Both the position numbers and the translations under genes were made by a program. The notes beneath the pieces were generated by a model. That model was not told the origin of the DNA and did not search any database. It saw only the letters and a program-made list of their open reading frames with translations. From Sulfodiicoccus acidiphilus (GTDB taxonomy: Archaea > Thermoproteota > Thermoprotei_A > Sulfolobales > Sulfolobaceae): a stretch of 64,000 nt of DNA. Shown here one piece after another: positions 49,684 through 64,000 of this stretch. The first letter of the stretch is position 1. Each line of letters starts with the position of its first letter. The stretch covers positions 1,971,982 to 2,035,981 of the forward strand of contig NZ_AP018553.1 in assembly GCF_003967175.1 (NCBI RefSeq), given 5' to 3'.

Positions 49684-50092
49684 AGATCTGGAGGTCGCCG
49701 GCTCCCGCCACCCCAGCTTTCGGCTCCCTGCGTCGACCGCGCCGTTTACCCTCGCTGGGGGAGCGACCCTAGGGTCGTCGTGCAGATCGCGCGCCGAGAG
49801 CGCGTCCCTACAACGGTCCTCGGCCACCTTAGAAGGTAGGTCTAACTCCTACCTCAACGTGGTGTAGAACTCCTAGTGGATTTTACCTGACACTCCCTTC
49901 TGGGTCCGGGAAGTTCTCCTTCTACCGGAAAAGGGTGGAACGCATCGCTTGAACGTAGTAGTTCGCGGGGCGACCTTCGTCGAGATCGCGGTTCCGATCC
50001 TTCGACCCTCCAGGCCATCGAGGGGTTTGGAACGAAGAGGACGTTTAAATTGACATTCCCGGCCCTAGGAGTAGGTAGGCCTTCAATCTTAT

Positions 50093-50362
50093 CTGACTTC
50101 CTCCCCGCCCTGGAAGGGCGATGGTTCCCTCCCAAAGGGATCGTCGTTCCCGCCATCGGTTCGGGTTTACATGTCTCGTTTGGTGGGCAGTCGAGTGGAT
50201 CAGAGATCCACTCCCATTTGAAGAGGAGGGGACTTTCACCCATTACGTCTAGTCCCTTAAAGGAAATTGAAGCCGCTGCTCGCTCCTCCCTCAGTCCCAT
50301 TAAACCTTAGATCGAGCTGGGGAGGAGCGTCGTTAGTACCACTAAGAGAAATTTCACAAAGA
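50093..50362 (-). repeat. Type A IS-derived repeat, best preserved copy
   Basis: About 270 bases. On the minus strand it runs from GTGAAATTTCTCTTAGTGG through ACGACGCTCCTCCCCAGCTC and CATGTAAACCCGAACCGATG to CCAGGGCGGGGAGGAAGTCA-G. The ordered motifs recur at 54104-54352, 12190-12424 and 49096-49230. There is no transposase gene, so these are miniature or decayed derivatives of a TnpB element that keep the right-end RNA scaffold. A candidate guide on the minus strand begins at 50092 and runs leftward. Confidence 0.65.
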
Positions 50363-57732: not shown

Positions 57733-58059
57733 CTAGCTTGACCTCAGGTGGGCGACTATCCTTCTCCCTTCCTTGGTTAGCTGATAGTAACGACCTCTAG
57801 GTGATCCGTCCTTGGCCTTCACCTTTAGCCAAGGTTTGACGGAGGACGTCGGTGACATCTTGGGAGGGTGTTTAACTCTCTGTATCAGGCCAGCGTCCTG
57901 CAATCGACGACAGGCCAGTTCCACCTCCTCAGGGTCTAGGTTTGGAAACCAACCCGACTCACCATTTAGCCTTCTCGCCATGTACCACGGATCGTCAGGT
58001 CCGTAGCGGTACAAATGGAGGAGTATAGACTTCTGCAATGGAGTGAGGTCTGTGTTCAC
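57733..58059 (-). CDS. Small winged-helix protein (DUF2250-like)
   Basis: 108 residues. The pattern LTPLQKSILLHLYRYGPDDP then WYMARRLNG, EEVELACRRLQDAGLIQRV and a wing ending YYQLTKEGRRIVAHLRS is a MarR/PadR-like winged helix; archaeal DUF2250 proteins share the YGPDDPWYMARRL segment. GTG start. The loop between helix and wing (KHPPKMSPTSSVKPWLKVKA) is longer than usual. It may regulate the oxidoreductase downstream. Confidence 0.8.
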   Translation of the reverse strand: MNTDLTPLQKSILLHLYRYGPDDPWYMARRLNGESGWFPNLDPEEVELACRRLQDAGLIQRVKHPPKMSPTSSVKPWLKVKAKDGSPRGRYYQLTKEGRRIVAHLRSS

Positions 58060-60610: not shown

Positions 60611-61339
60611 ATGAGGCTCCAGGACAGAAAGGTGTTGGTCGCTGGGGTAAGCCGGGGACTAGGTTACAGCGTGGCCTACCTCGCACTAAAGGAAGGAGCG
60701 TATGTCACCCTGAACTCTAGGGACGAGAGGAAACTCTCCCAACTCAAGGAAGAACTGTCGAGTTACGGAAAGGTCAACACAGTTCAGGGCGACCTCTCAA
60801 CTCCTCAGGGCGCCAAATCGGTGGTGGAAGAGGCAACGAAATTGATGGGTGGGTTAGACCACCTGGTCATAACTGTGGGTGGATACGTAGAGGACACAAT
60901 AGAAGATCCGTCGGGACTAGAGGAGATGCTCACTAACCACGTCAGAGTGCCCGTATACTTAGTGAAAGCGGCCTCAAAGTACCTTAGAGAAGGCTCGTCC
61001 ATAGTAGCGGTGAGCTCCATGGTCGCCTTAGGCGTGGCCGATCCGGCTCAACTCTCCTACGCAGCTGCTAAGACGGCGCTCGTGAAGTTGGTAGAGGTGT
61101 TGGCAGCAGAACTCCTGCCACGAGGAGTGAGAGTCAATGGTGTCGCACCTTCATTCATAAAGGGAGACTTCGAACCGGGAAGGGAGTGGAGGAAGATGAG
61201 GAAGTTAGGAGACGATGGAGCTCCTCCGGAGGACTTCGCATCAGTAGTGCTTTGGTTGTTAACCGACGAATCTGAATGGGTGGACGGTGTGGTCATACCG
61301 GTAGACGGAGGAGCTAGACTCAAAAAACGGGGAGAGTGA
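60611..61339 (+). CDS. Short-chain dehydrogenase/reductase (3-oxoacyl-ACP reductase-like)
   Basis: 242 residues. The cofactor motif VLVAGVSRGLGYSVAY (Gly-rich, about residues 8-23) and NSRDER suggest NADP(H). The catalytic set is the Ser of VAVSSMVA (about 136) with YAAAK (Tyr about 150, Lys about 154). The closing VIPVDGGAR is classic. The structural motif usually NNAG appears as ITVGGY, an unusual substitution. ATG start. Substrate unknown. The 3' end overlaps the ABC binding-protein gene by 20 bases. Confidence 0.93.
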   Translation: MRLQDRKVLVAGVSRGLGYSVAYLALKEGAYVTLNSRDERKLSQLKEELSSYGKVNTVQGDLSTPQGAKSVVEEATKLMGGLDHLVITVGGYVEDTIEDPSGLEEMLTNHVRVPVYLVKAASKYLREGSSIVAVSSMVALGVADPAQLSYAAAKTALVKLVEVLAAELLPRGVRVNGVAPSFIKGDFEPGREWRKMRKLGDDGAPPEDFASVVLWLLTDESEWVDGVVIPVDGGARLKKRGE

Positions 61340-62333
61340 CGTTGAGCTTTTGGACATAGGAATCGTTTAGAAAGAAGGGTGCCGAGCCATTTATAATTGC
61401 CCTCATCATCTCCAGACCGTACACTGAGAGAGGGCCGGGCTCGTTTATTAATGACACTGGCAACGGGCATCCAACCACGTAAAGTCTGTGTGGATAGTTC
61501 ACATATGAATTAATGAGATCAGTTGTGTAACTGACATTGTAGACACAGTTAGCAATTATTACGGGAGGCCTGTAGGCCAATATGGTTTCGCCAGAGACCT
61601 CTGGATAGGGGTTGGACAGGTTAGCGTAGACGTTCTTTCCTCCTGCCGTCTCAATTATCCCATTTATGAAGGAACCTCTAGAGATTGTGTAGAAGTCGTC
61701 CTGAGGGGTCCAACATATGACGTAAGCCACAGGGACCGTGGGAGTGGAATTGTATAGGAATACTTTACTCTCCATCCACTTCACTAACTGTCTAGCTTGG
61801 CTCTGCATATCGAACACCTTACCTAATAGCTCGACATCCTGATATATTCCCGTGAAGTTCGTGTCGAGATCTCCCCTGGTGAAGACTACGTTCAACCCCG
61901 CCTGCTGGAACTGTTGAAGGTACTGTCCGTCGATCCCAGCATCTGCCACCACGAGGGAAGGTTCGAGTACCTTTATCGCCTCGGAGTTCAGGGTAGGATA
62001 GGTGACGTTAGGCGGAAGGACTGTGACGTTGCTAGGAAGGACCGACGTCATGTTGAGTTCTTGTAGGAGCTGATATGAGTAATAGTCGACTGCTACCAAG
62101 TCCTTCCCAAGTCCTAACGCTACGAGGATCTGTGTGTCACTAGGTGCTAAGGACACTATTCTGGAAGGGAAGGACGAGATAGTGACGTTCCTACCCAGGC
62201 CGTCCACAACAGAGATGGGATAGTAGGGGCCTTGCTTCACGGTAACGGATGGAGACCTCTCGTATGCGAAGTAGGCTGTAACCCCTAGGACGACTACTAC
62301 CACGAGCGTGACAGCCAAGGTCGAAGTTCTCAT
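61320..62333 (-). CDS. ABC transporter substrate-binding protein (BtuF/FhuD type)
   Basis: 337 residues. An N-terminal hydrophobic stretch (residues about 6-24) serves as signal or anchor. The class III binding-protein layout is clear: ISVVDGLGRNVTISSFPSRI, VSLAPSDTQILVALGLGKDL (N-lobe start), a long central helix (LLGKVFDMQSQARQLVKWME) and GGKNVYANLS. More than a dozen N-glycosylation sites. No lipobox Cys, so anchoring is by the N-terminal helix. Cobalamin, haem or iron chelates are plausible ligands. It has its own palindromic operator three bases before the ATG. Confidence 0.92.
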   Translation of the reverse strand: MRTSTLAVTLVVVVVLGVTAYFAYERSPSVTVKQGPYYPISVVDGLGRNVTISSFPSRIVSLAPSDTQILVALGLGKDLVAVDYYSYQLLQELNMTSVLPSNVTVLPPNVTYPTLNSEAIKVLEPSLVVADAGIDGQYLQQFQQAGLNVVFTRGDLDTNFTGIYQDVELLGKVFDMQSQARQLVKWMESKVFLYNSTPTVPVAYVICWTPQDDFYTISRGSFINGIIETAGGKNVYANLSNPYPEVSGETILAYRPPVIIANCVYNVSYTTDLINSYVNYPHRLYVVGCPLPVSLINEPGPLSVYGLEMMRAIINGSAPFFLNDSYVQKLNVTLPVF

Positions 62334-62336
62334 GAG

Positions 62337-62355
62337 GCTGGATAGGCTATCCAGC
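62337..62355. promoter_or_regulatory. Palindromic operator at the btuF-like gene
   Basis: GCTGGATAG-G-CTATCCAGC, nine-base arms around a single base, three bases before the ATG at 62333. A TATA-like AACTTTTAAG (minus strand) lies directly upstream, so a bound protein would cover the transcription start. The core TGGATA-N3-TATCCA is shared with the operator at 63972. Confidence 0.8.
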
Positions 62356-62372
62356 TTAAAAGTTTAGCTGCC

Positions 62373-63029
62373 TCATGGGGCGGGTATCAGGAATCTCCTC
62401 CCTCCTCCCTCCACTTCCACGAAACGCACCCCATATAACTCTTCCAAGTCCTCTGCCCTAACTCCCCACGGTTGGCATTGCTTCATTAGTTTCCCTTCCT
62501 TGATCATAACTATCCAGTTCGCCAACGTAAGCAGGGACATGTCGTGAGTCGCAACCACTACTGTCCTCGCCGTCGATATGTCGACCACCCTTTTACTCAC
62601 AAGGAACGAGTTAGAAGGATCCAAATTCGAGGTCGGCTCGTCTAGAAGAAGTGTCTTACCCTTCGTCATGGCCTTTGCGATCATCACCAACCTCCTTTCC
62701 CCGGAGCTCAGCGTATCGAGCCTCCTGTGAAAGAGGTGCAGTACACCTAGCTCGGAGAGTGCATTTTTGGCGATCTCCACCTCTTCCCTGCTGGGTGGAT
62801 ACCAGGTATCCTCAGCTAGCATGAACTTGTCTACAGATATGGGTGCGTCGGGGAGATCGGACGGAAGATATGTAGTACCTAGGAGTGGACGCACTTCTGA
62901 GAGTGCTCCGTTGAGTATACCGTCCTTCACCCTCATCCCTGCTAGGCGTTTCAGAAGGGTTGTCTTCCCAGAACCGTTAGGGCCAACGACTACGTTCAAC
63001 CCACTCCGTAATTCAAGCCCTGTACTCAA
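62373..63029 (-). CDS. ABC transporter ATPase (BtuD/FecE type)
   Basis: 218 residues, short for this class because the first strands before Walker A are abbreviated. Walker A is VVGPNGSGKTTLLKRL (about residues 12-27), the signature LSSGERRLVMIAKAM, Walker B TLLLDEPTSNLD and the H-loop VVATHDMS. The Q-loop region is TTYLPSDLP, without the usual Gln. TTG start lies within the end of the permease gene (17-base overlap), which means translational coupling. Powers the BtuC-like permease. Confidence 0.92.
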   Translation of the reverse strand: MSTGLELRSGLNVVVGPNGSGKTTLLKRLAGMRVKDGILNGALSEVRPLLGTTYLPSDLPDAPISVDKFMLAEDTWYPPSREEVEIAKNALSELGVLHLFHRRLDTLSSGERRLVMIAKAMTKGKTLLLDEPTSNLDPSNSFLVSKRVVDISTARTVVVATHDMSLLTLANWIVMIKEGKLMKQCQPWGVRAEDLEELYGVRFVEVEGGGRRFLIPAP

Positions 63030-63966
63030 GCCCCATCGCCAACCTGATCATTATGGGGAGCACGAAGGCCGAAGTGACAGCTGTTATGGGTACTATAAAC
63101 CCGAACGTACCGTCCGAGATGTCGTTAGCAGCCTCCATCACTAGAGCACCTACAATGCACGAGGTTAGCAACACCTGTCTGAAACCGTCGGCGCCCATCA
63201 ACCTCGCCATGTGGGGACTCATTAGCCCGACGAACCCTATTGCGCCAACCTGAGAGACTAAGTAACCCACCACTAAACTAGTCAAGGTCAACCACCCCAG
63301 CCTGAACTTACCGACGTTCAGACCGTTAGCGTAGGCTACTTCGTCTCCCAGCGAGGCGAGGTCGAAGGCCCGTGCCCTCAATGTTAAGACGTAGAGGAAC
63401 ACCAGTGTCACTGATAAGAGGACTCCGACATCGGTGAAAGTTTTCACGCCCACGTCCCCGAAGAGCCAGTAGAGGGCGTTGGGAAGCTGTGGATACTTGA
63501 ATTGAAGATACTCCTCCGCCACCAGCAGTCCTGATGTGAAGGCAAAGTCGACAGTGAGTCCAGCTAATAGAAGCGACCCAGGACCTCCCTTTCTTCCTAA
63601 GGCCAATACTATTAACGACCCGAGTACGGAAAAGGCGAACGCTGCCACCGGTTGTGCCAAGATTGAGAGGAATAGCGGTACTCCCGTGAAGAATGCTATC
63701 ACTGCTCCGAAGGCCGCTCCAGCAGCAGTACCAGACACGTACGGGTCCATGAGGCCGTTTCTAAATAGGGTCTGGAGAACTGTACCTGACGCCGCTAACA
63801 CGATTCCGGTTAGGGCCGCGTAGATGACAGTTGGAAGCTTCATGTCGAGTAAGATCTCCCTGTATACTCCCGTGGAATTGAGGGGAGTGTAGACTGGTCC
63901 GTAAAGGAGCCCGAGGAGGCCAGCCGCGATCGTCGACATTACCAAAACCAAAAGAAGCCCCTTCAC
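63013..63966 (-). CDS. ABC transporter permease (FecCD/BtuC type)
   Basis: 317 residues, about nine or ten helices. Hallmarks: MKLPTVIYAALTGIVLAASG (an atypical R to T change in the usual LRLPR start), GTVLQTLFRNGLMDPYVSGT with AAGAAFGAV, and the ATPase-contact loop GAIGFVGLMSPHMARLMGAD. GTG start. It opens the operon permease-ATPase, with the binding-protein gene 39 bases further down under its own promoter. Expected to import cobalamin, haem or an iron chelate. Confidence 0.93.
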   Translation of the reverse strand: MKGLLLVLVMSTIAAGLLGLLYGPVYTPLNSTGVYREILLDMKLPTVIYAALTGIVLAASGTVLQTLFRNGLMDPYVSGTAAGAAFGAVIAFFTGVPLFLSILAQPVAAFAFSVLGSLIVLALGRKGGPGSLLLAGLTVDFAFTSGLLVAEEYLQFKYPQLPNALYWLFGDVGVKTFTDVGVLLSVTLVFLYVLTLRARAFDLASLGDEVAYANGLNVGKFRLGWLTLTSLVVGYLVSQVGAIGFVGLMSPHMARLMGADGFRQVLLTSCIVGALVMEAANDISDGTFGFIVPITAVTSAFVLPIMIRLAMGLEYRA

Positions 63967-64000
63967 GTGGGTGGATAGCTTATCCAGATATTTATAGATA
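63967..64000 (-). promoter_or_regulatory. Promoter and palindromic operator of the BtuC-like operon
   Basis: Reading the minus strand, CTATAAATATC (TATA box) is followed by TGGATA-AGC-TATCCA (63972-63986) and, six bases on, the GTG start. The half-sites equal those at 62339-62353. The operator lies between TATA box and start codon, which suits repression. Confidence 0.8.

Follow-up and report, generated by a model that had tools for sequence, protein, structure and literature searches.

The importer locus and its two operators

The window, i.e., the whole stretch of 64,000 nucleotides of Sulfodiicoccus acidiphilus DNA that was analysed, carries on its minus strand the genes of a BtuCDF-type importer in the order btuC-btuD-btuF. 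The btuC-type permease (63013..63966) has 317 residues when read from a GTG at 63966, and matches FecCD (PF01032) with an E-value of 3e-56; the btuD-type ATPase (62373..63029, 218 residues, ABC_tran PF00005) begins at a TTG that overlaps btuC, and the btuF-type substrate-binding protein (61320..62333, 337 residues) matches PF01497 with an E-value of 1.4e-17. The importer is placed in the BtuCDF type by the occurrence of Peripla_BP_2, FecCD and ABC_tran subunits together in one locus; all three subunits score below the curated equivalog cut-offs for BtuC, BtuD and BtuF, BtuC being the top NCBIfam match of the permease, and BtuF and its relatives being matched by the binding protein. That the substrate is a corrinoid is deduced from the regulon described below.

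Two promoters of this locus, both directed along the minus strand, contain the palindrome TGGATA-N3-TATCCA. The first copy of the core, TGGATAGGCTATCCA, lies at 62339-62353 in front of btuF and extends to a 19-bp palindrome with nine-base arms, GCTGGATAG-G-CTATCCAGC (62337..62355); three bases separate it from the btuF ATG (complement of 62331-62333), and on its other side it abuts a TATA-like box, TTTTAA (62356..62361), a feature that the initial annotation of this region did not mention and that is placed alike in most orthologues. The second copy, TGGATAGCTTATCCA (TGGATA-GCT-TATCCA), occupies 63972..63986 at the head of btuC-btuD, in the interval between a TATA box, TATAAATA (63989..63996), and the btuC GTG (complement of 63964-63966), from which it is 5 nt away; this arrangement is matched in another genome of the genus (G154, L144) and in genome G148 (L095). 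Both boxes were read from the sequence. The initial annotation had given the same positions for the two cores, the same arms and three-base spacing for the first site and the same placement between TATA box and GTG for the second, and all of these held when the letters were read again.

The gene order found here has an internal promoter before btuF, and this accounts for the presence of two operators on a single importer. The btuC-btuD-btuF order, with a separate TATA box and operator for btuC and for btuF, is found in this genus and in G148; most genera have btuF-btuC-btuD, usually with a single operator ahead.

The exact motif occurs only twice in the whole 2.353-Mb genome, at these two promoters. 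When up to two mismatches were allowed, 120 matches were obtained in the genome versus 102 for a reversed control, so that loose matches are mostly noise. One 15-mer at two mismatches from the operator, TGGATCAGAGATCCA, is unrelated to it; this sequence (approx. 50080-50330 in the window; L015, L023 and L026) occurs about 20 times in the genome within a conserved repeat of approx. 200 bp, one end of which resembles the end of an IS200/IS605-type element.

Conservation of the operator in the Sulfolobaceae

A scan of 31 Sulfolobaceae genomes that started from the motif found exact copies in 30 of them, 93 in total, versus 5 for the reversed control. Sixty-nine of these copies were examined with their flanking sequence, and 62 stand at gene starts: btuF (18), bluB (13), NiCoT (11), the cbiX-cbiC fusion (8), APC-type permeases (6), btuC (5) and cbiG (1). 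The target names derive from matches to BluB (TIGR02476), NiCoT, a Ni/Co permease (TIGR00802/PF03824), CbiXC (NF004449) and CbiG. The other seven comprise one copy before a decayed NiCoT gene and six within reading frames. At the decayed gene (L111:4972, genome G150), the operator and TATA box are intact and the permease behind them is reduced to N- and C-terminal remnants.

To avoid circularity, orthologues were also picked by protein search and the motif was sought afterwards. The operator was present, with at most two mismatches, at all 25 bluB orthologues (17 exact, 6 with one mismatch and 1 with two among the 24 scanned; the 25th site is exact and lies just beyond the stretch scanned) and at all 30 btuF orthologues with loci (19 exact, 10 with one mismatch and 1 with two). 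The best matches of the reversed control in these tests had four mismatches at bluB and three at btuF. The consensus of the 55 sites is TGGATA(G/A)NCTATCCA, with invariant G, G, A, C and C at positions 2, 3, 4, 13 and 14.

These data bear directly on another explanation of the palindrome, namely that it arose by chance or that it forms a hairpin in the mRNA close to the start codon. The six exact copies within reading frames (6/69), some of which are explained by Trp-Ile-x-Tyr-Pro codons, would agree with chance; on the other hand, a first-order Markov model with the dinucleotide content of the window predicts 0.07 copies per 2.353 Mb (0.002 per window) where two were found, and the orthologue tests, with 55 of 55 sites conserved, refute a chance origin. 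A hairpin would likewise be misplaced, since with leaderless starts the site would be upstream of the RNA. Taken together, this explanation is hardly credible. The initial annotation had named two outcomes that would count against its proposal, a motif frequent throughout the genome without preference for promoters and a lack of conservation at orthologous genes; the motif proved to be scarce, strongly promoter-bound and conserved throughout the family at both genes.

The regulon and its signal

A third promoter of the S. acidiphilus genome names the signal as cobalamin. Two copies of the operator with one mismatch each, overlapping in tandem with an offset of 14 bp (TGGATAGGCTAACCAGGATAGGTTATCCA, G000:C1:801394-801422), separate the TATA box of cbiG from its ATG; this gene encodes cobalt-precorrin-5A hydrolase and heads a cobalamin-synthesis cluster in which the next genes are cbiE, the cbiX-cbiC fusion, cbiH, cbiD, cbiT, cbiL and a further methyltransferase gene. 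A second genome of the genus (L146) also has the overlapping pair before cbiG. In Metallosphaera javensis, copies with one mismatch precede cobN and an APC permease. The two promoters of the initial annotation form only part of a larger regulon, and its suggestion that the downstream genes would identify the signal proved sound, given that the other targets are cobalamin genes and not iron or haem genes. The bluB gene is missing from the S. acidiphilus genome, whereas G154, the other genome of the genus, has it together with an operator; the lower ligands of the two may accordingly differ.

By virtue of the operator, the importer is assigned to corrinoids, NiCoT to the supply of cobalt and the uncharacterised APC permease to corrinoid metabolism. 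The operator-bearing APC-type permeases fall into two uncharacterised groups (L102, L126, L129, L153, L154, L161 and L231; all sites exact except that of L231, with one mismatch), and they are candidate transporters of corrinoid precursors.

Two other signals have to be weighed. An iron or haem operator of the DtxR/IdeR kind would agree with the scores of the permease and the binding protein, for which models of the FecCD and IsdE types fit about as well as those of Btu proteins; nevertheless, no iron or haem gene was found among the sites examined and the identified enzyme targets are all cobalamin genes, which leaves this reading with a negligible probability. A cobalt- or nickel-sensing repressor, whose regulon would answer to the metal and not to the corrinoid, is the other possibility: the targets include NiCoT permeases, the CbiX chelatase domain and CobN, and much of this regulon would also be expected under a cobalt sensor. 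However, the corrinoid importer and the DMB synthase bluB are also targets and neither handles free metal, nor do the salvage genes cbiP, cobT and cbiZ that carry the motif in a groundwater metagenome-assembled genome (MAG; see below); metal sensing is therefore considered unlikely, and a corrinoid is favoured as the ligand.

Regulation by RNA was addressed with the covariance model of the cobalamin riboswitch (RF00174), which gave no hit in any of the 31 Sulfolobaceae genomes and was positive in 8 of 14 control genomes. If these genes are controlled by B12, a DNA-binding protein must consequently do the job.

Promoter geometry and a model for repression

The position of the palindrome is fixed as well. 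In 28 of 30 btuF promoters the start codon lies 3–7 nt past the palindrome (5–7 nt in 27 of these), and at 41 of the 55 btuF and bluB sites the best TATA-like box ends 0–3 nt ahead of it. The usual distance from the TATA box to the transcription start in archaea is about 25 nt; the predicted start consequently coincides with the start codon, so that the palindrome would fill the region in which the polymerase is placed. This location fits that expected for a repressor of transcription initiation. The initial annotation had proposed that both sites lie where a repressor would block the start, and the fixed succession of TATA box, palindrome and start codon speaks for this placement, with repression itself as the probable consequence.

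It could be argued that a palindrome abutting the TATA box at nearly all promoters examined is an activator site, or that it aids the loading of TBP and TFB. Archaeal activators usually bind upstream of the BRE/TATA elements, whereas this site is downstream of the TATA box, where a bound protein would clash with the polymerase; such a role is quite improbable.

From these results, it is proposed that TGGATA(G/A)-N-C-TATCCA is a cobalamin-regulon operator, probably bound by a dimeric winged-helix repressor under ample corrinoid, a model that we hold with considerable confidence. When corrinoid is sufficient, the putative dimeric repressor, probably of the winged-helix fold, would most likely bind the operator. 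Transcription is presumed to be leaderless, beginning at or beside the start codon, and since the operator fills the gap from the TATA box to the probable transcription start, the bound repressor would stop TFB and RNA polymerase from initiating. When corrinoid is scarce the repressor would leave, and uptake (btuCDF and NiCoT) and synthesis (the cbi cluster, bluB and cobN) would be turned on together. In this model the repressor is proposed from the position of the sites and the corrinoid ligand from the content of the regulon.

Occurrence outside the Sulfolobaceae

The motif is also found ahead of btuF in two families of the same order (f2 and f6), and in other f6 genomes it lies between the genes of methylmalonyl-CoA mutase and a BtuF-like protein. 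A further occurrence is in a groundwater MAG labelled Euryarchaeota, between cbiP and btuFCD and again upstream of cobT-cbiZ. Its presence at B12 genes in the sister families and in the euryarchaeal MAG suggests that the operator is older than the Sulfolobaceae. Outside f1 (the Sulfolobaceae), f2 and f6, a phylum-wide scan for the exact motif gave mostly single matches, and those inspected were intragenic; a pattern scan of the genome collection gave about 30 matches, largely bacterial background. A Naiadarchaeum MAG has the motif approx. 200 bp away from a gene for ribonucleotide reductase, with a BtuR-type adenosyltransferase encoded on the same contig; this single case may be due to chance. 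In f2 (L240:2192), an operator was observed some 50 bp upstream of what looks like a gene for the B12-binding subunit of methylmalonyl-CoA mutase.

Candidates for the regulator

Three candidates for the regulator were tested and none was retained. One is a small winged-helix protein encoded in the window (57733-58059, minus strand), 4 kb from btuF and with weak similarity to DUF2250. It is conserved, uncharacterised and usually adjoins a DtxR-like gene; one copy is present in 22 of the 22 Sulfolobaceae genomes searched and it occurs in five f6 genomes, and in genome G046 it stands beside an operator. It is without an operator of its own, and it is missing from f2 and from other operator-bearing f6 genomes. 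Another, an HTH-DUF4443 protein (PF14544) with one copy per family genome searched, has no operator nearby and is missing from operator-bearing f6 genomes; its gene (L268:3528-4256 and orthologues), conserved in the Sulfolobaceae, is divergent from an argF/pyrB-type gene and adjoins a kinase-like gene. Last, the start of a woesearchaeal HTH gene (L201:5623 / L234:5024) is 10 nt away from an exact operator that has an extra half-site near it, and no specific orthologue of this gene was found in operator-bearing genomes. The short operator, near-invariant at all btuF and bluB orthologues examined, is a ready bait for the regulator, and the Sulfolobaceae are genetically tractable.

Comparison with known systems

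The cobalamin riboswitch turns off the genes of B12 transport and synthesis under B12 and is in this respect similar to the system proposed here, although it is a bacterial RNA element and the Sulfolobaceae site is a DNA palindrome. Archaeal repressors of the YtrA, Lrp and DtxR types bind between the TATA box and the start; they resemble the putative repressor in an operator placement at which the recruitment of TFB and RNAP would be blocked, and they differ from the Sulfolobaceae site in operator sequence and target genes.

The nearest relation is a predicted one. In 2003, Rodionov et al. reportedly described a 'CBL-box', the site of a hypothetical B12 regulator, in some archaea; a literature search for CBL-box gave no match. 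For Pyrococcus furiosus, a paper of 2023 includes a predicted cobalamin regulon whose regulator, CblrR, is given as 'unknown' (PMC10746257). The initial annotation knew of no described archaeal operator with such a consensus, a view that needs qualification, as the idea of a B12 operator in archaea had been predicted before (CBL-box/CblR; PMC10746257). On the strength of these two precedents, the present operator belongs with the predicted archaeal CBL-box/CblR kind, where it is placed by its targets: like the other members, it is a DNA operator at archaeal cobalamin genes with a hypothetical B12 regulator, and its sites stand at promoters of both cobalamin transport and synthesis. What comes from the present analysis are the gene-first statistics, the TATA-operator-start geometry and the targets bluB, NiCoT, cobN, the APC permease and mcm, some of which may also be in the list of 2003. 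It is possible, albeit somewhat doubtful, that the operator of the Sulfolobaceae, in its fixed position and with bluB, NiCoT, the APC permease and, in a sister family, mcm as targets, is both undescribed for these organisms and read by a new class of archaeal corrinoid-sensing repressor.
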